Shown here one piece after another: positions 28,131 through 40,881 of a stretch of 64,000 bases of DNA (position 1 is the first letter of the stretch; every line of letters begins with the position of its first letter). The notes below the pieces were generated by a model. That model was not told the DNA's origin. It saw only the letters and a program-made list of their open reading frames with translations, and made no database searches. This DNA comes from Pelagibacterium luteolum (lineage in GTDB: Bacteria; Pseudomonadota; Alphaproteobacteria; Rhizobiales; Devosiaceae). Both the position numbers and the translations under genes were made by a program. The stretch spans positions 372,001 through 436,000 of the forward strand of contig NZ_FNCS01000003.1 of NCBI RefSeq assembly GCF_900100665.1. Direction: 5' to 3'.

Positions 28131-30074
28131 TCAATTCCGCAATTGGGGGAGGCCGACATAGAGGGCCAGCGCTTCGGGATTGGCCAGAGCTGCGGTATTC
28201 CTCACTGGCCGCCCATGGATCGTGTCGCGAACCGCAACCTCGGATATCTTGCCGGAGCGCGTGCGCGGGATGGCATCGATTGCGATGATCCGCGCTGGAA
28301 CGTGTCGGGGAGACGCCCCCATTCGGATACGATTGCGTATTGTCGTTTCCATCGCTTCATCGAGCAGCGCGCCTTCGCGCAACTTGACGAACAGGATCAC
28401 CCGTTGGTCGCCATCAATGTCTTGTCCGACAGCAAGCGCTTCCTCGATCGCGTCGATAGTTTCGACCTGTCTATAGATTTCCGCCGTCCCGATACGAACA
28501 CCGCCAGGATTGAGCGTGGTGTCGGACCGGCCATGGATGATGTATCCACCTTGGGGCCGCTTCTCCACGAAGTCTCCATGGGCCCATAGCCCGGGAAATC
28601 GCTCGAAGTAGGCTGCGGTATAACGCGAGCCATCCTCGTCCCCCCAGAACCCGATCGGCATCGACAGATGCGCATTCCGGCACACAAGCTCTCCGGGCGC
28701 ACCCAAGATCGGCTTTCCGTGCTCGTCCAGTATATCCACCTCCATCCCGAGCAACGCGCACTGCAACTCACCACGTCTCACCGGCAGCAATACATTCCCG
28801 CCAAGAAAGCAGGCGCAGATGTCAGTGCCGCCCGAAATCGACGCCAGATGCAAATCGGACATCCAGTCGCGGTAGATGTAGTCGAAGCTGGATGGAATAA
28901 GCGGAGAGCCGGTCGACAATATCATCCTCAACGTTTCCAGCCGGTGGGTTCGGCGTGGCACTACGCCTGATTTCAGGCAATGATCGATATACTTTGCGCT
29001 CGTCCCAAAGACGGAGATCTTTTCGTAATCGATAAGGTCAACCAGCCTCTCAACGTCCGGAAAGAAAGGATTGCCGTCATAGGTGACCAACGTTGCGCCA
29101 ACCGCGAGACCAGAGACCTGCCAGTTCCACATCATCCAACCGCAGGTGGTGAAATAGAAGAAGCGCTCATCGCGTTGCAGATCGCAGTGAAGCACGAGCT
29201 CCTTTTTGTGCTGAATCAGCAGTCCTGCCCCCGAGTGGATTATGCATTTTGGCTTTCCAGTCGTGCCCGACGAAAAAAGGATCACCATCGGTGCCGTGAA
29301 GGGCATGCGGTTGAATGCAATGGTCTGAGGCTGATAGGTCGACATCCAGTCGTCCCAGGTCACCGCGCCCAGATCGGCAAGCCAATTGGGAACCTCATCT
29401 GCAATGAGGACAATAGCGTCCAACTCCGCCTCGGTGGATATGGCCCTTATCGATGCAGAGACATCAATAACTTTTCCCGCATAGCAGTATTCCGCCACGG
29501 CAATAAGCACCTTCGGTGCGACTTGGCACAGCCGGTCGCTCGCGGCGGTCGGTCCAAAATCAGGTGAACAGGACGACCAAATCGCGCCGATAGCCGATGT
29601 CGCGAGATATGCAACGATAGCCTCGATATCGTTGGTGACGATGGCAGCGACGCGATCCCCCTCGACTACGCCGACGGCCCGGAGCGCTTGGTCCGCACGC
29701 GAGACCATACGATAGAGGTCCGCCCAACTGACATCACGCCGTGTGCCGTCGTCGCGATAAGCGATGATGGCCACCCCATCATCGCGGCACCGCAACAGGT
29801 TCTCCGCATAGTTTACTCGCGCGCCGGGGTAAAATTGCCCACTGCGCAGCCCATCACCGGCAACGAACCCGGTCTCCCCCCTGTCGCCGACAATATCCAG
29901 GAAATCCCACAACGCCTCATGGAACTGGTCTGGCGCGTCGATCGACCAGCGATGCAGGCCGTGATAGTCGCCCGGTTCCACCCCATGCAGTGACCGGGTC
30001 GTCTCGGCAAACCGCCAAATCGCGGAAGCCTGCTTTTGTTCAGGTGACGCTTGCCAGAGGATTTCGTTGTCCAT
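28131..30074 (-). CDS. Acetoacetyl-CoA synthetase
   Basis: 647 residues from the ATG at 30074, which has GGAGG 5 bases before it. ANL-superfamily enzyme making acetoacetyl-CoA from acetoacetate, ATP and CoA, used in polyhydroxybutyrate or ketone-body metabolism. Adenylation core ILFSSGTTGKPKCIIHS, the AACS-typical TTCGWMMWNWQVSGLAVGA, the SGGTDICACF segment and the C-terminal PRTRSGKISEVAVRD with the catalytic Lys are seen. The gene is last in a minus-strand series after two glycerate kinases (62-base gap); a metabolic link to those is not evident. Confidence 0.93.
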   Translation of the reverse strand: MDNEILWQASPEQKQASAIWRFAETTRSLHGVEPGDYHGLHRWSIDAPDQFHEALWDFLDIVGDRGETGFVAGDGLRSGQFYPGARVNYAENLLRCRDDGVAIIAYRDDGTRRDVSWADLYRMVSRADQALRAVGVVEGDRVAAIVTNDIEAIVAYLATSAIGAIWSSCSPDFGPTAASDRLCQVAPKVLIAVAEYCYAGKVIDVSASIRAISTEAELDAIVLIADEVPNWLADLGAVTWDDWMSTYQPQTIAFNRMPFTAPMVILFSSGTTGKPKCIIHSGAGLLIQHKKELVLHCDLQRDERFFYFTTCGWMMWNWQVSGLAVGATLVTYDGNPFFPDVERLVDLIDYEKISVFGTSAKYIDHCLKSGVVPRRTHRLETLRMILSTGSPLIPSSFDYIYRDWMSDLHLASISGGTDICACFLGGNVLLPVRRGELQCALLGMEVDILDEHGKPILGAPGELVCRNAHLSMPIGFWGDEDGSRYTAAYFERFPGLWAHGDFVEKRPQGGYIIHGRSDTTLNPGGVRIGTAEIYRQVETIDAIEEALAVGQDIDGDQRVILFVKLREGALLDEAMETTIRNRIRMGASPRHVPARIIAIDAIPRTRSGKISEVAVRDTIHGRPVRNTAALANPEALALYVGLPQLRN

Positions 30075-30135
30075 CGCAGCCTCCGTCATCCACACGCGAC
30101 GCCCCGCCGGAATAACGCCCAACTCTTACCTTGGT

Positions 30136-31410
30136 TTACGAACCGATCAGTATCGCGCGGAAGTCGTTGACGTTCGTCCCCGTCGGCCCAGTGACGAATA
30201 GATCGTCGACCGCAGCAAAAGCTGTCCAGGCATCATGCTTGCATAGGCTCTTGCGCGGATCGATGCCCGCGGCCCGCATGCGAGACATTGTCTTCCCATC
30301 AGCAAATGCGCCAGCATTATCTTCCGAACCGTCGATCCCGTCAGTGTCGGCCGCGAGCACATGAACGTCGTCCATACCCTCGATGCCCTGCGCCAGAGCA
30401 AGCAGAAATTCCGTATTCCTGCCCCCCTTCCCGCCACTCTCGCCGCGCATGGACACTGTAGTTTCCCCGCCGGACAAAAGCACGATAGGACCCTTAAAGG
30501 GCTCGCCATAGCGCACCACATTGCGCGTAATCGCGGCGTGCATGCGCGCGATATCCTTGGCCTCGCCCTCGATAGCGTCGGACAACACTACGCAAGGCAA
30601 GCCCAATTGTGCAGCTTTCGCGGATGCAGCCTGCAATGACAAATGTGCGGAAGCGATCACATGCGCGACGTTGCGCTCAAAGACAGGGTCATCGGGCCTC
30701 GGAGCAAAGGCAGCGGACGATCTAAGATGCGCCATTACCTTTTCCGGTAGCATAAGGTGATGCTCTTCAATGATCTCAAGCGCATCGGCCGGCGTGGTCA
30801 TATCCGGCACTGTTGGCCCGGAGGCGACAATAGCGGGGTTGTCGCCTGCGACGTCCGAAACCAAAAGACTGACGACCCGCGCCGGTGCTGCTGCCTTTGC
30901 CAAGCGCCCACCTTTGATCGCCGAGACATGTTTGCGCAGCACATTCATGGCCGCGATCGGCGCGCCGGAACTCAACAGGATGCGGTTGACTTCAGCTTCG
31001 TCCTCAAAGCTCAGGTCGCCGGTCGGCAGCGGCAGCAACGCGGATCCTCCACCCGACATCAGCGCAATAACTAGATCATCTGACGTGAGCCCGGTGACGG
31101 TTTCGAGCAGGCGCCTTGAGGCGGCCAAACCCGATGTGTCGGGAACCGGATGCGCAGCATGGATCACCTCGATCTGCCGCGTGGCCGTGGTCTTTCCATG
31201 TCGATCGACAACCACCCCCTCGATCGGCCCATCCCAGAGACTTTCGAACGCTGCAGCCATCTGACTGGCCGCCTTGCCGGCACCCACAATGATGGTTCGA
31301 CCCTTCGGCTTTTCCGGGAGATATGGACGCAGGGCGTCCTTGGGATCCGCTGCAGCGACGGCAGCCTGAAATAGTGACTTCAAAAAAGTGCGCGGCTCGT
31401 GTCGCGTCAT
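30136..31410 (-). CDS. Glycerate 2-kinase, MOFRL family (copy 1)
   Basis: 424 residues; phosphorylates glycerate to 2-phosphoglycerate in the cytoplasm. N-terminal domain with KGRTIIVGAGKAASQMA, ALMSGGGSALLPLP and SDVAGDNPAIVASGPT; C-terminal MOFRL domain GGRNTEFLLALAQGIEGM with AADTDGIDGSEDNAGAF. The family was often called TtuD/hydroxypyruvate reductase. A second, clearly different paralogue (roughly 45 percent identical by eye) lies just upstream; 64 bases separate them. Operon order suggests use of glycerate made by the adjacent tartronate semialdehyde reductase. Confidence 0.93.
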   Translation of the reverse strand: MTRHEPRTFLKSLFQAAVAAADPKDALRPYLPEKPKGRTIIVGAGKAASQMAAAFESLWDGPIEGVVVDRHGKTTATRQIEVIHAAHPVPDTSGLAASRRLLETVTGLTSDDLVIALMSGGGSALLPLPTGDLSFEDEAEVNRILLSSGAPIAAMNVLRKHVSAIKGGRLAKAAAPARVVSLLVSDVAGDNPAIVASGPTVPDMTTPADALEIIEEHHLMLPEKVMAHLRSSAAFAPRPDDPVFERNVAHVIASAHLSLQAASAKAAQLGLPCVVLSDAIEGEAKDIARMHAAITRNVVRYGEPFKGPIVLLSGGETTVSMRGESGGKGGRNTEFLLALAQGIEGMDDVHVLAADTDGIDGSEDNAGAFADGKTMSRMRAAGIDPRKSLCKHDAWTAFAAVDDLFVTGPTGTNVNDFRAILIGS

Positions 31411-31474: not shown

Positions 31475-32740
31475 TCAGCGAACCAGAATCGCGCGAAAAT
31501 CGTTGACATTGGTATATGTCGGGCCGGTTACCACGAGGCGTTTGGCAGCCCGGAAGAATGTGTAGGCATCATTACGATCGAGATAGGCCGCGGGGTCTGA
31601 AGGACCTGAAAAATCGGAAGAAAAATCAAACCAGGCGCCAGCATTTTCTTCGGTGCCATCAATGCCATCCGTATCGCACGCAATTGCTGCCACCTGGGAA
31701 TAGGGCTTAAGCGCAAGATAGAGTGCCAGGAGGAATTCGGTATTCCGGCCACCACGTCCGACGGCTTCGGGCCTGAGCGTAACTGTGGTCTCTCCACCGC
31801 TCAGTAGGACGCATGGCGGCGCAAACGGTGTGTTGTACTGGATGATCGACCGCACGATGCCCGCCATCGCGACCGCGACTTCGCGCGCCTCCCCTTCGAT
31901 GGCATCCCCCAGGATGACGGCCGCAATCCCCATCGCTTCGGCCTCACGCCTGGCAGCGTCCAGAGACATGCGTGGCGTAGCGATCATATGCACCGTGTTT
32001 CTATCCGTCTCGGCTTCCGGCGCTGAATTGGCAACCAGTGATTGTGCTGCATGCTCTGGAATATCGATGCGAAAGCGCCGCAGAATAGCCTGGACGTCGT
32101 CCAGATCGGCTCCAGTAACAATCGATGGGCCTGACCCCACCGTAGCCGGATCATCACCCGGAACGTCAGAAATGATATAGGTCACAACCTTCGCAGGTGC
32201 CGCAGCCAACGCCAGCTTGCCCCCTTTGACCGCCGAAAACGCCTTGCGCACAGCATTCATTGCGCCGATCGGAGCACCTGATCTGAGCAATTGACGGGTA
32301 ATGTTCTGCTTGTCGGCAAGCGAGATGCCGTTGGCTGGCATAGTGAGGAGCGACGAAGCCCCGCCTGATATCAAAACAACCACGAGATCGTTAGGACCAG
32401 CGCCTCGCGCCATCTCGACTATTTCGCGTGTTGCCTTAAGTCCTGCTTCGTCAGGCACCGGATGGGCAGCCTCCACGACCTTGACGTGCCGCGTTTCAAC
32501 CGCGTGACCGTATCGCGTGACGATCAGGCCCTCGAGCGGCTCACCCCATGCGTCTTCGAACGCCCGAGCCATCCGCGCCGAGGCCTTGCCAGCACCCAAC
32601 ACAATGGTACGTCCTTTGGGCCGCGCCGGAAGGATCGCGTCGAATTTTTCATCCGGCAGTGCGGCATCGAGGGCCGCATCGAACAAGCGGCGAAGCACCT
32701 GCTCGGCGTCGAGATCGCCGATCGTTTCTTTGGCCAACAT
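31475..32740 (-). CDS. Glycerate 2-kinase, MOFRL family (copy 2)
   Basis: 421 residues with the same domain layout as its neighbour: KGRTIVLGAGKASARMA, VLISGGASSLLTMP, SDVPGDDPATVGSGPS and the MOFRL domain GGRNTEFLLALYLALK with CDTDGIDGTEENAGAW. The divergence between the two suggests different substrate preferences (for example glycerate against a related hydroxy acid) rather than a recent duplication. It follows the reductase gene by 86 bases on the same strand. Confidence 0.93.
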   Translation of the reverse strand: MLAKETIGDLDAEQVLRRLFDAALDAALPDEKFDAILPARPKGRTIVLGAGKASARMARAFEDAWGEPLEGLIVTRYGHAVETRHVKVVEAAHPVPDEAGLKATREIVEMARGAGPNDLVVVLISGGASSLLTMPANGISLADKQNITRQLLRSGAPIGAMNAVRKAFSAVKGGKLALAAAPAKVVTYIISDVPGDDPATVGSGPSIVTGADLDDVQAILRRFRIDIPEHAAQSLVANSAPEAETDRNTVHMIATPRMSLDAARREAEAMGIAAVILGDAIEGEAREVAVAMAGIVRSIIQYNTPFAPPCVLLSGGETTVTLRPEAVGRGGRNTEFLLALYLALKPYSQVAAIACDTDGIDGTEENAGAWFDFSSDFSGPSDPAAYLDRNDAYTFFRAAKRLVVTGPTYTNVNDFRAILVR

Positions 32741-32826: not shown

Positions 32827-33705
32827 TCAACCGATTTCGTGATTGGCCTGGACTTCAAGGGCACGAATGAGGGCGGAGTGGTCCCATTCCTTGCCGCCCT
32901 GGGCAGCGCATGCGCTGAACAATTGCTGGCACAAAGCTGTGGCTGGCAGCGCCATATCGAGCTTGCGCGCAGAATCGAGAGCGTTGTTGAGGTCTTTCTG
33001 ATGCAACTCGATACGAAAACCTGGGTCAAAGGTCCGCTTGACCATGCGGTCTCCGTGAACCTCGAGAATACGTGATGAGGCAAAGCCGCCCATCAGGGCC
33101 TCGCGCACTTTTGCCGGATCAGCTCCGGCCTTGGATGCAAAGAGCAGCGCCTCGGCGACCGCCTCAATCGTCAGCCCGACGACGATCTGGTTGGCGACTT
33201 TTGCAGTCTGGCCGTCGCCGACCTCTCCGACACGGGTAATGTTCTTGCCCATGGTTTCAAAAAGCGGCCGGACGATATCGAAATCGGCCTGTTTGCCACC
33301 CACCATTATGGACAGGGTTGCTTCGCGCGCGCCCACCTCACCACCCGACACCGGAGCGTCGAGATAACCACAGCCCTTCTCGGCGATCTTTGCAGCAAAC
33401 TCTTTTGTCGCTATCGGCGAAATCGAACTCATGTCGACAATGATTTTGCCTGCTGAAATTCCATCGTAAAGACCGCCGTCACCAAACAACACCGCCTGAA
33501 CATGGGGGGTGTCCGGGACCATGACGATGATGACGTCGGAGCGTTCGGCGACGGCGCGGGAGGACTCGCAGGCATGTGCACCCTTATCGGCCAAAACCTG
33601 AGGAACTTTGACCCGGTCGTAAACGAACAGCGCGTGGCCGGCATCAAGCAGATGCCCCGCCATCGGTGTTCCCATAATTCCGGTTCCGATGAATCCGATA
33701 TTCAT
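32827..33705 (-). CDS. glxR: 2-hydroxy-3-oxopropionate (tartronate semialdehyde) reductase
   Basis: 292-residue beta-hydroxyacid dehydrogenase reducing tartronate semialdehyde to glycerate. NAD(P)-binding GFIGTGIMGTPMAGHLL at the N-terminus, substrate-binding DAPVSGGEVGAREATLS, catalytic Lys in GQTAKVANQI and the C-terminal KDLNNALD are all present. Of the family, GarR/GlxR is favoured over 3-hydroxyisobutyrate dehydrogenase because of the neighbouring aldolase and glycerate kinases; sequence alone does not settle it. Confidence 0.88.
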   Translation of the reverse strand: MNIGFIGTGIMGTPMAGHLLDAGHALFVYDRVKVPQVLADKGAHACESSRAVAERSDVIIVMVPDTPHVQAVLFGDGGLYDGISAGKIIVDMSSISPIATKEFAAKIAEKGCGYLDAPVSGGEVGAREATLSIMVGGKQADFDIVRPLFETMGKNITRVGEVGDGQTAKVANQIVVGLTIEAVAEALLFASKAGADPAKVREALMGGFASSRILEVHGDRMVKRTFDPGFRIELHQKDLNNALDSARKLDMALPATALCQQLFSACAAQGGKEWDHSALIRALEVQANHEIG

Positions 33706-33822: not shown

Positions 33823-34704
33823 TTATTGCGGCTCGGATGCTTCGCGGGCACTGCGCGAGCCATTGGCCACGAGACCAAGATCGTTCGGGCCTTGGAAGCA
33901 GGAATAGCCTTCGCGACTTGTCCGCCAATCGAGCGGGCCACAGACCGGTTTTCCGTTCGCCTCGGCCGCCGCAAAAATACGATCGACCAGTTCTTCGTAT
34001 TCGGCATCGCCCTGCTGATATCCGGAGAAATTGCCCAGATCGCCTGACGCGATGAATAGCGCATCCACACCCTCGACCGCGGCGATTTCTTCGACGTTCT
34101 CGACACCCTCGAGCGTCTCGATCATCAAGATAAGCACGATGTTGTCGTTAAACGTGGCGCGATAACCGCCCGGAACGTCGGCATAGAAGTTCGAGAACTG
34201 TCCTCCGCCGGCACTATGACGGCCAACAGGCGGGAACATGGTCCACTTAACGGCTTCCTCGGCCTCTTCGGCTGTGTCGATGGTCGGCACGACCAGCACC
34301 ATCGCGCCGGCGTCGAGCGCGTGCTGAATTTCACGCTCGGTCGTTTCGGCAATACGAACACCAGGAACTGCTGCGGCGTCCGGGCACTCACGATACATCG
34401 CGGCTAGCGACTCCCAGCCGGTCTGATCATGCTGCATTTCGACCCACATGAAGTCCCATGCGCCGGATTCCGCCATCGAGCAATATATGCGCGAGTCAGG
34501 CGAACGCACCGTGCCGCCGATGATGTGTTCACCGTTGAGGATCTTCTGCTTCGCAGTGTTCCAAATTTCTACCTCGCCTTCGACGTCATAAGCGGGGCCG
34601 TATTCCCACTCCGACGCCAGGAACGCAGCATCTTGAGCGACCGCGCTACCGGCCATTGAGCAAGCCATAAGCCCCGCAACGATGGTCTTAGTTAGAATAT
34701 GCAT
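33823..34704 (-). CDS. HpcH/HpaI-family aldolase with N-terminal signal peptide
   Basis: 293 residues. The first ~23 residues are a convincing Sec signal peptide (TKTIVAGLMACSMAGSAVAQ), then ~45 residues of linker, then the HpaI-type barrel. By alignment to HpaI from memory, the catalytic His is kept (EMQHDQTG, where HpaI has DGEH), as are Arg (VRIAE), metal ligand Glu (MIETLEG) and Asp (SGDLGN). Aldolases of this family cleave keto acids into pyruvate plus an aldehyde, normally in the cytoplasm. The export signal would place this one in the periplasm beside a TRAP transporter. Preceded by a 135-base AT-rich gap with candidate operators. Confidence 0.85.
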   Translation of the reverse strand: MHILTKTIVAGLMACSMAGSAVAQDAAFLASEWEYGPAYDVEGEVEIWNTAKQKILNGEHIIGGTVRSPDSRIYCSMAESGAWDFMWVEMQHDQTGWESLAAMYRECPDAAAVPGVRIAETTEREIQHALDAGAMVLVVPTIDTAEEAEEAVKWTMFPPVGRHSAGGGQFSNFYADVPGGYRATFNDNIVLILMIETLEGVENVEEIAAVEGVDALFIASGDLGNFSGYQQGDAEYEELVDRIFAAAEANGKPVCGPLDWRTSREGYSCFQGPNDLGLVANGSRSAREASEPQ

Positions 34705-34797
34705 TTTCTCTCTCCCATTTCCTTTTTCAGGAACCTCACTGACAAATCAACATTTTGCCATGAAAGAAATATAGTCAAACTAAATATCTAGTATTTC

Positions 34798-34839: not shown

Positions 34840-35133
34840 CTACCCGATTAACTTGCTAAAGAACTCTCGCTCTCGGCGTTCGAGCTTCGGGACAATCCGA
34901 CCAGCGATGATCCGCTCAAAATGCGCTGTGCGGCGATGCCCATCAGCGGCGGGCTCGTCGATATAGACTTCACAGAGCAGAAACTGGTTGGGATGCTCGT
35001 TTGACCCCCAAACCTCGTAACTCACGCAGCCCGGCTCGAATTTTCTGATTTCTTCAGCCATCTCGCTAAGATCGGCGAGCACCTGATCGCGATGGCCATC
35101 TTTTATGAAGTAGCGCGCGGTCATCAAAATCAT
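34840..35133 (-). CDS. Small antibiotic-biosynthesis-monooxygenase (ABM) domain protein
   Basis: 97 residues with the dimeric ferredoxin-like ABM fold pattern: MILMTARYFIKDGHRDQVLADL, EIRKFEPGCVSYEVW and QFLLCEVYIDEPAADGHRRTAHF. Members include quinol monooxygenases and LsrG/rhamnose-mutarotase-like aldehyde or sugar enzymes. Here, at the head of the sugar-acid cluster and divergent from the TRAP operon, a role in processing the imported compound is more likely than antibiotic synthesis (inference). Confidence 0.8.
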   Translation of the reverse strand: MILMTARYFIKDGHRDQVLADLSEMAEEIRKFEPGCVSYEVWGSNEHPNQFLLCEVYIDEPAADGHRRTAHFERIIAGRIVPKLERREREFFSKLIG

Positions 35134-35349: not shown

Positions 35350-36339
35350 ATGAATTACTTTGGATTGATCCGCGGCGCGGCAATGACCGGCGTTGCTGTG
35401 GCCGCGCTTACAGCGGGCGCCGCGCAGGCACAGACGGTGATGCGCATCAACGTTTCGATGCCGCAGGATGGTCACCACGGCATCGCGATCGATACGTTCG
35501 CCGAGCAGGTCGAAAGCCTTACCGACGGTCGCTACCAGATCGAAACCTTTTACGCTGGCTCCCTCGGCGCCGAACGGGAATCGATCGAAGGGGTGCAATT
35601 GGGCACGCTGGAATTGACCTTCACCTCGACCGGCCCGGTCCCCAATTTCGTGCCGGAGCTGTCGATTCTCGACATCCCGTTCCTGTTCCGAGACTACGAA
35701 CACGCACGCGGCGTTCTCGACAGCGAGATCGGTGACGAACTGCTCGGCCGCTTCGAAGCGCACGGGATCAAGGGCCTGGCCTGGGCCGACAACGGCTTCC
35801 GCCATATGACCAACGACATCCGCCCCATCGCCTCACCGAGCGATCTAGACGGCCTCAAGATGCGTACCATGGAAAGCCCGGTCCACATCGCAGCCTATCG
35901 CGAGTTCGGCATCCTGCCGACGCCAATGGCCTTCCCCGAAGTCTTCGCCGCCCTTCAGCAAGGTGTCGTGGACGGGCAGGAAAACCCGCTATCGGTGATA
36001 GAGTCCAACAACTTCGACGAGGTTCAGCAATACTTATCGATGACTGGTCACGTCTTCTCGCCCTGCGTCTTCCTCATGAACCTCGATATGTGGAACCAGC
36101 TCTCGGAAGAAGATCAGGGCCATTTCGTAACGGCGGCACAAGCCGGCGCAGAAGCCAATCGCGCCCGCGTCGATGCCGATGAAGAAACGGCGATCGAGTC
36201 CATGCGTGCAGACGGTATGGAAATTATCGAAGACGTCGACCGAGATATCTTCATCGAAGCGCTCGCCGCGGTCAACGCGCAGTTCGAAGAACAATTCGGT
36301 GCCGAAGAAGTTGCCGCCATTCGCGACTGGCAACCCTGA
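35350..36339 (+). CDS. dctP: TRAP transporter substrate-binding protein DctP
   Basis: 329 residues from the ATG at 35350, with GGAGGAG upstream; the longer open frame has no support. Signal peptide AAMTGVAVAALTAGAAQAQ. DctP-type features: LTDGRYQIETFYAGSLG, SIEGVQLGTLELTF, the carboxylate-binding Arg in GLKMRTMESPVH, and the segment QQGVVDGQENPLSVI. It collects a carboxylate-bearing substrate, here probably a sugar acid, for the DctQM permease encoded next. A stem-loop lies between it and dctQ. Confidence 0.94.
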   Translation: MNYFGLIRGAAMTGVAVAALTAGAAQAQTVMRINVSMPQDGHHGIAIDTFAEQVESLTDGRYQIETFYAGSLGAERESIEGVQLGTLELTFTSTGPVPNFVPELSILDIPFLFRDYEHARGVLDSEIGDELLGRFEAHGIKGLAWADNGFRHMTNDIRPIASPSDLDGLKMRTMESPVHIAAYREFGILPTPMAFPEVFAALQQGVVDGQENPLSVIESNNFDEVQQYLSMTGHVFSPCVFLMNLDMWNQLSEEDQGHFVTAAQAGAEANRARVDADEETAIESMRADGMEIIEDVDRDIFIEALAAVNAQFEEQFGAEEVAAIRDWQP

Positions 36340-36365
36340 TCACTCCTCAATCCAACCATGTCTCC

Positions 36366-36390
36366 ATGCGGGCGCTGAGAGCGTCCGCAT
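36366..36390 (+). other. Intercistronic stem-loop after dctP
   Basis: ATGCGGGCGCT pairs with AGCGTCCGCAT (one G-U) around a GAG loop. There is no T tract. Such hairpins after binding-protein genes usually protect the upstream mRNA and lower permease expression. Confidence 0.55.
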
Positions 36391-36420
36391 GTCCGGCAAC
36401 TCTGCTAAAGGACACTCGGC

Positions 36421-36939
36421 ATGCAATCGGCCGTCAGGATGTTCCTGCTCTTCGACAAGGGCCTCAACAGGCTAATCTCAATAATCTCGGTTCTGGCACT
36501 GGCAGCTGCGGCCTGCCTTGGCATGCTGCAGGTCGTTTCGCGCTTCGTGCTCAAGCTTCCGCTGGAGTGGACCGAGGTGATGATCCGCATATTTCTGGCG
36601 TGGATGGTGTTTGTCGGGGCCGCACTCGTGTTCCGTGCCGGCGCCATGATCGCCGTCGATCTCATGCGCCACATGATGCCTGAAAGATTTCGGCGGGCCC
36701 ATGACCTATTCATCACGCTGACGACTCTGCTGTTCCTGGCGCTGCTCGGCTATTGGGGCCTCGTGTACGCGAACCGCAGCGCAACCCAAACGATCCTGGG
36801 CATGCATTATCTGTCGGTCTATTGGGCCTATCTTTCCATTCCGGTCGGCTGCGTCTGTTCGGCAATTGCCGTCATCGCGCGCTTTCTCGACGCCGAGCCG
36901 GTGGTCGATGAGGCCGAAGAGCTCAAGCTCGTACATTAA
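36421..36939 (+). CDS. dctQ: TRAP transporter small permease DctQ
   Basis: 172 residues with four transmembrane helices, the standard DctQ topology; the first is LISIISVLALAAAACLGMLQ and the conserved W after it (LEWTEVMIRIFLAWMVFVGAA) fits the family. It connects the binding protein with the ion-driven DctM subunit. It sits between dctP and dctM, 11 bases before the latter. Confidence 0.94.
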   Translation: MQSAVRMFLLFDKGLNRLISIISVLALAAAACLGMLQVVSRFVLKLPLEWTEVMIRIFLAWMVFVGAALVFRAGAMIAVDLMRHMMPERFRRAHDLFITLTTLLFLALLGYWGLVYANRSATQTILGMHYLSVYWAYLSIPVGCVCSAIAVIARFLDAEPVVDEAEELKLVH

Positions 36940-36950
36940 GGTTTATCGTT

Positions 36951-38228
36951 ATGGCTATCGTCATGCTCGGGGTGATGCTGATCGGCTTCATCGTATCCAT
37001 TCCTATTGCCGTTTCGATCGGCCTGGCGGGCGCTGTTGGATTGCTGATGACCAACACCAACCTCCTGATACTGCCCAAGGAAATCTACACGGCTATCGAC
37101 AAGTTCCCCTTGGCGGCAATCCCGTTCTTCATACTTGCGGGTGCGATTATGGAGCGGGGAGGCATCTCCATCCGCCTTGTCAATTTCGCCAAATCATTGA
37201 TCGGCGGCGTGCAGGGCGGACTGGCTGCGACGTGCGTTCTGACCTGCATGATGTTCGCCGCTATCTCCGGTTCGTCGATCGCCACAACCTTCGCTATTGG
37301 CGCCATCTTGATACCTGCCCTGGTCCGCGACGGCTATCCTCGCCCCTACGCCGCAGCGTTGCAGGCGAGTTCAGCAGAACTGGGGGTGATCATTCCCCCG
37401 TCCATCCCATTGATTCTTTACGGGGTATCTGCGGAAGTCTCGATCGGCGAACTGTTTATCGGCGGCATCGGCCCAGGGATCTTCATCGGCGCCGTAATGA
37501 TGATCTTCGTGCTGCTTTACGCCCGTTGGAAAGGATACGGCAAGGTAGCCAGGGCCGACCGGCTCTCCATTACGCAGTCCGGTATCCAGGCACTGCCCGC
37601 TCTGTGCCTTCCCGTGGTGATCCTCGGTGGCATCTATAGCGGCATCACCACCCCCACCGAAGCCTCCGTTGTGGCGGTATTCGCCGCCTTGTTGATTGGC
37701 ATGTTCGTCTATCGCGAGATCAAGATTTCCGATCTCTTTTCCATCTTTCACAAGGCAGTCATGTCGACCGTGATGATCATGATCATCATCGCAACGGCGG
37801 GCCTGTTCAGCTACCTGATAACCCGGGCGGGCGTACCCAATGCCATCGGCTCGTATCTGAGGGATACATTGAGCGATCCGTTCATGTTCCTTCTGATCGT
37901 CAACATCGTGTTGCTCGTCATCGGGATGTTTGTTGAAACCAATTCCTCGATCCTGGTCCTGTCGCCCATCCTGGTCCCCGTTGCCATGTCCATGGGAATC
38001 GACCCTGTCCATTTCGGGCTGATCATGGTGGTGAACCTCGCGATCGGGATGGTGACACCGCCATTAGGGGTTAATGTCTACGCGGCCTGCACGGTGGGTA
38101 ACGTGAGATTCGACCAAGTCGTGCCAAGATTACTGCCGTTGATTGCGATGATGATCGGGTGCCTCATGGTGGTCACCTACGTGCCCGACATTACCCTGGC
38201 GCTGCGTGATATCGTTTATAACCGCTAG
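36951..38228 (+). CDS. dctM: TRAP transporter large permease DctM
   Basis: 425 residues, about 12 hydrophobic segments. DctM hallmarks: IPFFILAGAIMERGGIS, FAAISGSSIATTFAIGAI, the PSIPLILYGV run and the second-half VNLAIGMVTPPLGVNVY. It is the sodium-coupled transport subunit. The operon ends here; the following hairpin terminates the opposite strand. Confidence 0.96.
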   Translation: MAIVMLGVMLIGFIVSIPIAVSIGLAGAVGLLMTNTNLLILPKEIYTAIDKFPLAAIPFFILAGAIMERGGISIRLVNFAKSLIGGVQGGLAATCVLTCMMFAAISGSSIATTFAIGAILIPALVRDGYPRPYAAALQASSAELGVIIPPSIPLILYGVSAEVSIGELFIGGIGPGIFIGAVMMIFVLLYARWKGYGKVARADRLSITQSGIQALPALCLPVVILGGIYSGITTPTEASVVAVFAALLIGMFVYREIKISDLFSIFHKAVMSTVMIMIIIATAGLFSYLITRAGVPNAIGSYLRDTLSDPFMFLLIVNIVLLVIGMFVETNSSILVLSPILVPVAMSMGIDPVHFGLIMVVNLAIGMVTPPLGVNVYAACTVGNVRFDQVVPRLLPLIAMMIGCLMVVTYVPDITLALRDIVYNR

Positions 38229-38302: not shown

Positions 38303-39127
38303 TTAGTGGTCGACAGGCTGTGCCTTACTAAAGAGATCGAGTGGCAGAGCGATCACAACAGGTTCTTCCGCCAAGCCAAACCGAGCGTTCTCGATGCTCT
38401 CCCGGATAACGTCCGACATCGCCAAGCATGCACCATGCGGATTGCCATCCTTGATGGCCGCCAACACAAGCGCATGGCGGTTGATCGATCGCTTGAACCG
38501 CTCGTCAGTATCGATCGGGGCACTAATGGCGAACGCATGCAGGATGCATGCCTCGATGATCGACGAGAAGGTCTGCATGAACGGATTGCCCGAGGCGATA
38601 AGCACCTCTTGATGGAACACCAGATCAGGCTCGGCGTAGGTCTTACGCGTATGATGGGGCTTGTCCATCAAGTTGAGCGCATATTGCATCCGCTCGATGT
38701 TGAGTGCCGTCCGACGAACGGCAGCCTGTGCAGCCGCCGCAGGCTCGAGCGCCTGACGGACCTCGAAAATCTTCCGCAGAAACCCGTTATCGACCCCGAG
38801 TTCGATCCGCCAGCTTAGCACCTGCGGATCATAGAGGTTCCAGTAGCTCTCGTTGAGAATGCGAGTGCCGATCTTGGTCTTGGAAACAAGCAGCCCTTTG
38901 GCCGCCAATGTCTTGATGGCTTCCCGCAAAGCTGTGCGGGAAACCGTATACTGATCGATCAGATCCCCTTCCGGCGGCAAAAGCGATCCGGGCGGGTACT
39001 CGCCACGCAGAATGCGCATCGCAATATCGCGCGTAATCAGGGCATGAGCGGACTTTATGGGGCCGGTCAGGAGCCTAGGCAGCACAGCGCTGTCATCGGC
39101 GTGAATATCTTTATGCATCACCATCAT
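38303..39127 (-). CDS. GntR-family regulator, FadR subfamily, of the sugar-acid cluster
   Basis: About 274 residues. Three consecutive ATGs occur; the one at 39127 has GGAGG 6 bases upstream and is chosen, with 39130 and 39124 also possible. The winged helix contains YPPGSLLPPEGDLIDQYTVSRTALREAI; the FCD domain follows (IFEVRQALEPAAAAQAA, DLVFHQEVLIASGNPFM, RHALVLAAIKDGN). It stands between the TRAP operon and a divergent Gfo/Idh oxidoreductase, and ATAGTAT-type dyads occur in its own upstream gap and before the aldolase and dctP, so it probably represses the cluster until a pathway sugar acid binds. Confidence 0.9.
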   Translation of the reverse strand: MMVMHKDIHADDSAVLPRLLTGPIKSAHALITRDIAMRILRGEYPPGSLLPPEGDLIDQYTVSRTALREAIKTLAAKGLLVSKTKIGTRILNESYWNLYDPQVLSWRIELGVDNGFLRKIFEVRQALEPAAAAQAAVRRTALNIERMQYALNLMDKPHHTRKTYAEPDLVFHQEVLIASGNPFMQTFSSIIEACILHAFAISAPIDTDERFKRSINRHALVLAAIKDGNPHGACLAMSDVIRESIENARFGLAEEPVVIALPLDLFSKAQPVDH

Positions 39128-39573
39128 CATTCTCCTCCAATCATGATGCGGCTTCAGCGAAGTGCCCTCCCAAGCACAGCGCTGTGTAACGACCGGCGAA
39201 GATGTCCGCCGCTCTGATCCGGCCTCCGTGTTCTGAAGTCGACTGGTGCAAGGAATAGTCAAAGCGGTGCAATTGCGCCGGCTCAAAAACGCCCATATGG
39301 GCGATATCTTGCATCGTAATCACCGGACGACAAATTTGCCCACCGTTTCAGTCACCGGTCAACTCTTTGCGAAATTATAGTATTATTCCCTCAGGCGCAC
39401 CGAGCAATCATGTCAGACAGGTGTTGATATCTGTCTGATAAAAGCGATAGTCTATTGCTGTCTTCACCCTCCCGCACGGCTCGCCATGCCCTCACATGCT
39501 CCATGACACCCGAAACGCTCGCCGATTTTTGCGTCGACGCGTGTCTCCCAATCCCTGACCAAGGACGCTGACT
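39128..39573. promoter_or_regulatory. 446-base regulatory gap with two dyads between regulator and oxidoreductase
   Basis: No gene is supported here. It contains AATTATAGTATTATT (39373-39387), a 15-bp palindrome with one mismatched pair and the ATAGTAT core. Further on, a perfect 8-bp inverted repeat TCAGACAG (39413-39420) and CTGTCTGA (39431-39438) has a 10-base spacer. A smaller dyad, GCGATAGTCTATTGC, is at 39444-39458. The divergent promoters of both genes must lie here. Confidence 0.6.
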
Positions 39574-40881
39574 TTGAAATACGCAATTGTTGGCACAGGC
39601 GCGCGCCATTCTATGTTCCGCGACGCCATAACCCAAATCCATGCAGCAACGGCCGAACTCGTCGCGCTAAGTGACATTAACGACCACCGGTTGGCGCTGT
39701 CAGCGCAAGAGGTTCCGGATCAGACCGGCAACGGCATCGCAACCTACAGGGCAGAGCAGTTCGAGCAGATGATTGCCGAGCAAAAGCCTGCCACCGTGAT
39801 CGTCACGGTGCCCGACTATCTCCATCACGAATATATCGTCGCTGCGATGCGGGCGGGTTGTAACGTGGTCACCGAAAAGCCCATGACCACTGATCTTTCA
39901 CGCCTCAAAGCCATCCTAGATGCGCAGCGAGAAACAGGAAAATCAGTCTCCGTCACCTTCAACTACCGCTACACACCGGCCCGCACCCAGATCAAGAAAA
40001 TCCTCCAGTCCGGTGCCATCGGAGACGTCACTGCCATCGATTTTTCCTGGCACCTCGATCGCGTTCACGGCGCCGACTATTTCCGCCGCTGGCACCGCTA
40101 CAAGGAGAATTCGGGCGGCTTGCTGGTTCACAAATCCACCCACCATTTCGACCTCGTCAATTGGTGGCTCGGCTCGGTCCCCGAGAGCATTTCGGCCCGC
40201 GGACAGCTCGCGTTCTATAAGCCTCGGATGGCCGACCAACTTGGCCTCTCCGCGCATGGCCCACGCTGTCATGACTGCCCGGTCGCCCCCGAATGCGATT
40301 TTCGCATGGACCTTGAAACCGACGACAAGCTGCGCAAACTCTATCTGGAGGCCGAAGACCATGATGGTTATCTGCGCGACAAATGTGTGTTTGCTGATGA
40401 CATCACCATCGAAGATACGATGCAGGTCTCGGTGCGCTACCGTAGCGGCGCCATGCTCAACTACACGCTATGCGCCTACAGCCCATGGGAAGGTCTGGAA
40501 ATCCGTTTCCATGGGACCAAAGGCGAATTAACCCACAAGCATGTGGAAGTGCACGGCGTTTTCGGTGGAAAGCGCGAGCGCCCGGTCGACGATGCGATGA
40601 CAACGACCGTGCATATCGCTGGCCAACAGCCAGAACCAATGGACGTCTGGGAAGGAACTGGCGACCATGGCGGAGCAGACCCGATCATGCTGGGCTATCT
40701 GCTCGACCCGAACGCCATGGAACCCGACCTCTACGGGCGATCCTCGACCCATGTTGATGGCGCATGGTCCATTCTCACAGGCATTGCAGCAAATCAGTCC
40801 ATTGCCTCCGGCGAGACTGTGCACATCGCCCAAATGCTGGAACAGAACAACATTGTGCTCAGAGAAGCGGAGCCACCCTGA
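39574..40881 (+). CDS. Gfo/Idh/MocA-family oxidoreductase with Cys-rich insertion
   Basis: 435 residues with a TTG start; AAGGA precedes it by about 10 bases and the Rossmann motif VGTGARHSMFRD follows immediately, so the start is well placed. The EKPMTTDLSRL motif (catalytic Lys) and the HLDRVHGADYFRRWHRYKE region are family-typical; HKSTHHFDLVNWWL carries the catalytic His. An insertion RCHDCPVAPECDF holds three Cys plus His, suggestive of a metal site. Such enzymes oxidise or reduce sugars, inositols and their acids with NAD(P). Divergent from the FadR-type regulator, so probably a member of the sugar-acid pathway. Confidence 0.88.
   Translation: MKYAIVGTGARHSMFRDAITQIHAATAELVALSDINDHRLALSAQEVPDQTGNGIATYRAEQFEQMIAEQKPATVIVTVPDYLHHEYIVAAMRAGCNVVTEKPMTTDLSRLKAILDAQRETGKSVSVTFNYRYTPARTQIKKILQSGAIGDVTAIDFSWHLDRVHGADYFRRWHRYKENSGGLLVHKSTHHFDLVNWWLGSVPESISARGQLAFYKPRMADQLGLSAHGPRCHDCPVAPECDFRMDLETDDKLRKLYLEAEDHDGYLRDKCVFADDITIEDTMQVSVRYRSGAMLNYTLCAYSPWEGLEIRFHGTKGELTHKHVEVHGVFGGKRERPVDDAMTTTVHIAGQQPEPMDVWEGTGDHGGADPIMLGYLLDPNAMEPDLYGRSSTHVDGAWSILTGIAANQSIASGETVHIAQMLEQNNIVLREAEPP

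Follow-up and report, generated by a model that had tools for sequence, protein, structure and literature searches.

Cells normally take up a sugar acid before they cut its carbon skeleton. Why, then, does a gene for an HpcH/HpaI-type aldolase in Pelagibacterium luteolum begin with what looks like a signal peptide, and what might such an enzyme do outside the cytoplasm? We addressed these questions in a 64,000-nucleotide stretch of the P. luteolum genome (hereafter, the window). The observation that raised them, made in a first-pass annotation of the bare sequence, was confirmed, and by its sequence the aldolase belongs to a conserved clade, predicted to be exported, with its own set of cysteines and a change in the active site. 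Among the matches listed for the open PubMed Central literature, a body of text outside which most subscription papers lie, none described an exported HpcH/HpaI enzyme. If our reading is true, some alphaproteobacteria break sugar acids outside the cell and import only the small pieces. Cleavage outside would perhaps keep reactive aldehydes from forming inside the cell, or make use of the products of membrane dehydrogenases.

A predicted signal peptide precedes the aldolase domain

The aldolase is encoded by an open reading frame of 293 codons on the minus strand (33823-34704) that starts with ATG, and a GGGAG motif resembling a ribosome-binding site ends 7 nt upstream of this codon (Table 1). 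The encoded N-terminus, MHILTKTIVAGLMACSMAGSAVAQ, has one lysine and a hydrophobic core without charge, followed by AVA↓Q after residue 23 (the arrow marks the predicted cut). Signal peptides were called with a simple rule (charge, hydrophobic window, and cleavage motif), applied in two forms, one strict and one loose. At starts chosen with this crude rule in view, all 30 intact rows of the clade described below passed both forms. By contrast, when any start near the domain was allowed, only 2 of 46 homologue ORFs outside the clade passed the strict form and 4 of 46 the loose form; one glycerate kinase was a false positive of the latter. This difference argues that the signal-like start did not arise by chance. 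A small-x-small↓Q cleavage site was present in 30/30 clade rows, mostly after residue 23. Hence the signal peptide claimed by the first-pass annotation stood up to the rule and to the comparison across the clade. The marks of a Sec-exported periplasmic protein (n-region charge, a hydrophobic core, and an AxA-like site, kept in orthologues) were all found, and we consider it almost certain from these marks that the aldolase is exported, presumably to the periplasm.

The use of an internal start that omits the signal sequence, which the first-pass annotation had recognized as fatal to its proposal, was also examined. Within the first 110 codons, in-frame ATG, GTG, or TTG codons occur only at positions 1, 13, 17, 66, 77, 86, 90, and 103. 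Starts at 13 and 17 would fall inside the signal peptide, a scan of codons 17 to 66 found no start codon between them, and a start at 66 would remove W48, N49, K52, and G58, among other residues that are invariant in a six-sequence alignment. Since no start lies between codons 17 and 66, an internal start cannot yield a whole unexported barrel, and no usable one was found. This gap in start codons and the clade-wide signal-like start and cleavage site led us to reject both the use of an internal start and a signal peptide arisen by chance.

Table 1. Features of the aldolase locus, in window coordinates
Feature	Position	Strand	Evidence or remark
Acetoacetate--CoA ligase	28131..30122	-	TIGR01217, 798.6 bits (cut-off 520.9); ends the gene run
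Second glycerate 2-kinase paralogue	30136..31410	-	Profile matches; also in L058
Class II glycerate 2-kinase (DUF4147 + MOFRL)	31475..32740	-	Pfam above cut-off; 6/6 f1 loci
2-Hydroxy-3-oxopropionate (tartronate semialdehyde) reductase	32827..33705	-	TIGR01505, 409.9 bits (cut-off 340.75); 6/6 f1 loci
Mature aldolase, HpcH/HpaI domain	33823..34635	-	Residues 24-293 and stop
Metal ligand Asp222 codon	34039..34041	-	Invariant in 28/28 clade members and 45/45 others
Metal ligand Glu196 codon	34117..34119	-	Invariant in 28/28 clade members and 45/45 others
Arg117 codon	34354..34356	-	Invariant in 28/28 clade members and 45/45 others
Catalytic His92 codon	34429..34431	-	Invariant in 28/28 clade members and 45/45 others
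Predicted Sec-type signal peptide	34636..34704	-	Residues 1-23, predicted cut AVA↓QDAAF; small-x-small↓Q in 30/30 clade rows
Ribosome-binding-site-like GGGAG	34712..34716	-	Upstream of the aldolase ATG
ABM-domain small protein	34840..35133	-	Upstream; PF03992, 64.5 bits
TRAP solute-binding protein DctP	35350..36339	+	Divergent; nearest solved chains 4pdh, 4p9k/4pak, 4pdd
TRAP small permease DctQ	36421..36939	+	Profile match
TRAP large permease DctM	36951..38228	+	Profile matches
GntR/FCD regulator, start uncertain	38303..39286	-	Same cluster in 4/6 f1 loci including the window

The putatively exported aldolases form a clade with four fixed cysteines

To define the clade, we drew genomes at several taxonomic depths. 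In the window's family (f1, 136 genomes), five copies at 56-66% identity were found besides that of the window itself, and the next matches were at 39% or less. A draw from the class (385 genomes) gave one further relative at 53%, the other matches listed being at 41% or less; in the family of this relative (f7, 96 genomes), a match was present in 22 genomes, in one of them only in pieces. In a draw from the order (397 genomes), five sequences passed E 1e-50, namely the window's own copy, one already known, and three from families f177 and f251, and in a draw from the phylum (398 genomes) E 1e-45 was passed only by the window's own copy. Scoring in the large draws was limited to the six best candidates of each genome, so these counts are lower bounds. 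A single-protein scan of a named genome collection, suited to close relatives only, returned a single relative, from a Pelagibacterium MAG. Viral contigs yielded none when scanned, and a plasmid collection gave 180 records, all below 60% identity and at ~29-35% in the 20 listed.

In a tree of 75 rows, the 30 putatively exported rows split off with a support of 100/100 on a stem of length 1.92, at which, as the tree tool warned, long branches meet; the root is for drawing only. Residue counts given below compare 28 clade members that are less than 95% alike with 45 other homologues, a set from which three rows, all pieces of one broken clade copy, were left out. Three further members, L140, L141, and L142 (from f177 and f251), each have the catalytic residues, as judged by eye, and four cysteines after the signal region. 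L141 and L142 pass the signal rule; L140 fails at its called start, though a later Met removes an acidic residue.

Four cysteines, neither more nor fewer, are found in the mature chain of each of the 28 distinct clade members. They sit at C75, C255, and C269 in every member and at C107 in 27 of the 28 (the exception being L109). The same positions (C75, C107, C255, and C269) are Cys in 0, 6, 1, and 0 of the 45 other homologues, respectively, and only one of these 45 has at least two of the four. Other homologues have between one and seven cysteines in the domain, and 11/45 have four somewhere in it. An even and fixed set that appears together with the signal peptide fits two disulphides formed in the periplasm. 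Taken together, the signal peptide and the four-cysteine set strongly support export across the clade. A structure predicted from the window protein and the L001 alignment had a mean pLDDT of 48.4.

Catalytic residues are retained in the putatively exported clade

The aldolase scored 72 bits against the Pfam family HpcH_HpaI (PF03328, cut-off 25). It lies far under all four NCBIfam equivalog cut-offs listed: its best match was the GarL model TIGR03239, at 106.8 bits against a cut-off of 406.75, and the HpaI model TIGR02311 gave 87.1 bits against 368.8. The nearest solved chains were 4tv5, 4tv6, 2vws, and 1dxe.

The first-pass annotation had read the catalytic His and Arg and both metal ligands as conserved, and the alignment bears this out: H92, R117, E196, and D222 are invariant in the 28 clade members as well as in the 45 other homologues. 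The exported protein is probably an active aldolase. Position 89, by contrast, separates the two groups, as it is Glu in 28/28 clade members and Asp in 45/45 other homologues. Asp131, which we take to be the Asp of the catalytic dyad, is replaced by Thr in two clade members, L104 and L105 (both f7), and is otherwise conserved. Activity may be changed or lost in these two proteins; hence, not every clade copy need be active.

Arg70 and His45, together with a metal-bound water, play an important part in catalysis by E. coli HpaI (PMC8560999). The exported clade resembles HpaI (4-hydroxy-2-oxoheptanedioate aldolase) in Pfam family and catalytic residues, but differs from it in the signal peptide, the four cysteines, and the Glu and Gln changes before the His, as well as in the low model score.

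An aldolase, reductase, and glycerate kinase gene order in the window's family

In all six f1 loci found (five if two near-identical genomes are counted once), the aldolase gene is followed by genes for tartronate semialdehyde reductase and glycerate kinase, and TRAP genes run divergently in the order P-Q-M; neighbor genes in the relatives' loci were called with a home-made codon-usage caller. In the window, the TRAP genes (35350-38228) are divergent from the aldolase, with the ABM-family gene between them. An ABM relative is found in five of the six loci, as cluster c27 in four (behind the kinase in L060) and as the window ORF. The first-pass annotation had tied the aldolase to the adjacent TRAP transporter. 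This link held in 6/6 f1 loci but not in f7, where none of these TRAP gene clusters was near the aldolase in 24 loci. The reductase was likewise missing from the f7 loci; TRAP and reductase are not constant partners of the aldolase.

For the glycerate 2-kinase adjoining the reductase, the best NCBIfam match, GlyK_Thmprot, was under its cut-off. The window has class II glycerate kinases in tandem behind the reductase and then the ligase, and in L058, too, the two kinases occur together with a ligase from that cluster. At L059:12557-13951 (f1), a pyruvate kinase, recognized by eye, lies behind the glycerate kinase and completes the path from glycerate to pyruvate in one gene run. A promoter scan gave five weak consensus sites, the single minus-strand one being upstream of the ABM gene. 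On the plus strand, at window positions 39574-40881, a putative Gfo/Idh-type oxidoreductase (by eye) has a cysteine-rich stretch, CHDCPVAPEC.

Neighborhoods of the aldolase in other families

In f7, the most frequent neighbor was different: aldose 1-epimerase genes lay within two genes of the aldolase in 15 of the 24 loci fetched. The signal rule was passed by 24 of the 28 epimerases at these loci, and two were confirmed with Pfam. This arrangement, beside genes named by eye as recA and alaS, is one inherited order and not 15 independent events. Other sugar-related neighbors were seen in single f7 loci. An SMP-30 lactonase (122.9 bits) is directly behind the aldolase in L103; gluconate 2-dehydrogenase subunit 3, a GMC oxidoreductase, and a cytochrome c are near it in L098; a glucose/sorbosone dehydrogenase and a weak SGL match (30.9 bits) in L107; and an Amidohydro_2 protein in L106. 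Signal-like starts were found in the lactonase, the glucose/sorbosone dehydrogenase, subunit 3, and the cytochrome, and in neither the GMC nor the Amidohydro_2 protein. Such genes are not rare in f7 genomes (4-7 SGL matches per genome and 0-7 aldose epimerases, each in nine genomes), so the single neighbors could be due to chance. Among f7 neighbors within two genes of the aldolase, 50/80 passed the signal rule, versus 50/182, and 26/52 passed without the mutarotases; most of these loci share one gene order, and the enrichment is therefore not independent.

Parts of molybdenum hydroxylases were noted near the aldolase in two f7 contexts, a MoCoBD protein at L095:4874-7542 and a 2Fe-2S protein at L103:852-1316. 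The L095 large subunit begins with a twin-arginine-like sequence, and oxidation of an aldehyde product in the periplasm could be its role.

One f251 locus is closer to the window's arrangement: the aldolase is followed by a glycerate kinase (60% identical to two f1 kinases) and a GntR protein (56% to the window's), and a TRAP transporter of another sub-family, by eye, is ~4 kb off on the other side of the aldolase. The f177 loci have no clear pathway context; in one, ~4 kb away, there is a fragment resembling a reductase (53% to that of the window across 152 residues). Three loci with relatives of the TRAP-binding protein from f194, another family of the phylum, had no aldolase in their context, and one of the three, L130, resembles a tetronate operon by eye.

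Candidate substrates and the fate of the three-carbon product

Taking the signal-like start, the catalytic residues, the cysteines, and the neighborhood as seen in the sequence, we infer the following route. The aldolase would be made with a Sec signal peptide, exported, and cut at AVA↓Q, and the mature protein would fold in the periplasm with two disulphides. As a class II aldolase with a divalent metal, it would cleave a 2-keto-4-hydroxy sugar acid to pyruvate or hydroxypyruvate and an aldehyde. The adjacent TRAP transporter of the window's organism would take up the C3 hydroxy-oxo acid, either tartronate semialdehyde or hydroxypyruvate, its isomer; tartronate semialdehyde reductase would convert it to glycerate, and the glycerate 2-kinases would form 2-phosphoglycerate. 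The latter is the product of the class II glycerate kinases characterized so far (PMC2063504). For this proposal as a whole, which we prefer over the alternatives and in which a metal-dependent periplasmic enzyme cleaves a 2-keto sugar acid and the C3 product is imported to enter glycolysis as glycerate, we see the chances of being right and wrong as evenly matched; for the import-and-glycerate route, they fall just short of even.

Where might the substrate of the reductase otherwise come from? The galactarate dehydratase model had no match in the window's genome, and the glucarate dehydratase model gave 28 bits only, which is not a full score. Galactarate dehydratase matches in two other operon-bearing genomes (G074 and G117) reached 407 and 423 bits, under the cut-off of 731. 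Glyoxylate carboligase was over its cut-off in 0 of 13 genomes tested; its best score in the window's genome was 368 bits, with a cut-off of 711. The window's organism thus probably lacks two cytosolic sources of the reductase substrate and, unknown sources aside, the substrate likely comes from the aldolase or from uptake. With regard to uptake, DctP has 4pdh (E 9e-126) and 4p9k as very close relatives. These were reportedly solved with D-erythronate or pantoate, and the ligands of crystallized TRAP binding proteins may not be the native ones. As cargo, a small hydroxy acid of three or four carbons would agree slightly better with the import of a product than with that of a whole hexarate.

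The donor released by the aldolase may be pyruvate or hydroxypyruvate, and we treat these two choices as variants within the general aldolase proposal. A 2-keto-3-deoxy sugar acid is a possible substrate; the alternative is a non-3-deoxy 2-keto acid, raised by the lack of a full-scoring glucarate or galactarate dehydratase and by a Gln and a Ser that the clade has in common with a hydroxypyruvate-using family member. That member is SwHKA of Sphingomonas wittichii, which handles 3-hydroxylated 2-keto acids and has been solved (6r62, 8adq) with hydroxypyruvate and D-glyceraldehyde bound (PMC10099721). The exported protein might accordingly be a periplasmic hydroxyketoacid aldolase acting on a non-dehydrated 2-ketoaldonate that membrane dehydrogenases supply outside the cell; cleavage would give hydroxypyruvate and an aldehyde such as glyceraldehyde, no dehydratase would be needed, and both halves would become glycerate. 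The Gln-His pair of SwHKA (clade motif E-x-Q-H) and the Ser at its S116, a position of the resting-state metal site, are kept in 30/30 clade rows, and its Q43-H44, R69, P92, S116, E145, and D171 all have clade equivalents when mapped by eye. Our use of the Gln and Ser as marks of SwHKA-type enzymes is an assumption; both are also found in 11/45 signal-less homologues, one of which was tested and matched SwHKA best among solved structures. The f7 copies near gluconate 2-dehydrogenase subunit 3, GMC, and cytochrome c, or near glucose/sorbosone dehydrogenase, point the same way, tempered by how common sugar genes are in f7 genomes. SwHKA, however, has Asp in place of Glu89 of the clade, and its R120 (aldehyde contact) and F210 (hydroxypyruvate contact) correspond, by eye, to G168 and L258 in the window protein; the signal peptide and Cys set of the clade are absent from the part of the SwHKA chain compared, and the best family score goes to GarL. 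We regard this alternative as unlikely, though the strongest of those considered.

Somewhat less likely is GarL chemistry carried out outside the cell, whereby 5-keto-4-deoxyglucarate, or a similar 2-keto-3-deoxy aldarate, would yield pyruvate and tartronate semialdehyde. In the E. coli gar operon, the aldolase, reductase, and glycerate kinase follow each other in sequence of roles, with GarR as the reductase, GarK as the glycerate kinase, and a GarP-type carrier as the transporter of the GarL system. The window locus has the same order of roles after cleavage: its adjoining tartronate semialdehyde reductase and glycerate kinase would fill those of GarR and GarK. GarL also gives the best family score, and solved GarL chains (1dxe; 4tv5) are among the best matches. 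Against this, the score is far below the GarL cut-off, the exported protein has a signal peptide and four conserved cysteines, and before the His the clade has Glu for Asp and Gln for Glu. The locus has a TRAP transporter and not a GarP-type carrier. Moreover, with neither a galactarate dehydratase match nor a full glucarate dehydratase score in the window's genome, another source of the substrate would be required. The window also departs from the gar operon in the predicted export of its aldolase and in a genome where no glyoxylate carboligase passes the cut-off.

The first-pass annotation had also allowed that the keto acid is merely bound before uptake. A protein exported for binding or sensing, with the fold retained and catalysis lost, would suit the adjoining transporter and the loss of Asp131 in 2/28 members, but the invariance of the His, the Arg, and both metal ligands in 28/28 disfavors mere binding, and the transporter has its own binding protein; we consider this improbable. 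A membrane-anchored lipoprotein is a shade more improbable still: a lipobox-like LMAC at residues 12-15 occurs in four of the 30 rows, all of the window's genus, and is missing in the other 26, whereas small-x-small↓Q is found throughout. Finally, although 44 of 46 homologue ORFs (strict form; 42 of 46, loose) have no signal-like start, it is highly implausible that the protein is an ordinary aldolase of the cytoplasm whose N-terminus is hydrophobic by chance or whose start was called wrongly, because the signal peptide, cleavage site, and cysteines are conserved through the clade and no internal start is usable.

Implications and variation within the clade

Returning to the proposed periplasmic aldolase, its extension to the whole clade is more tentative, and we think it rather less probable than the route set out for the window's organism. 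Under this extension, an entire clade of class II pyruvate-type aldolases would work outside the cytoplasm with two disulphides and, in some lineages, complete a periplasmic sugar pathway of mutarotation, oxidation, lactone opening, and C-C cleavage, after which only C3 fragments would be imported and phosphorylated. If true, this would amount to a non-phosphorylating Entner-Doudoroff-like route in the periplasm. As the clade is marked by simple sequence features and sits in tractable operons, the idea is directly testable. A disulphide-bonded aldolase of the HpcH/HpaI family could also be of use in biocatalysis.

Copy number and integrity vary among clade genomes. Three diverged exported aldolase copies (L105, L107, and L108) are carried at separate places in one genome, G954, which suggests different substrates. 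In two other genomes, G922 (L110) and G1282 (L143), the copies are broken into pieces in the assembly, and are either pseudogenes or the result of sequencing errors.
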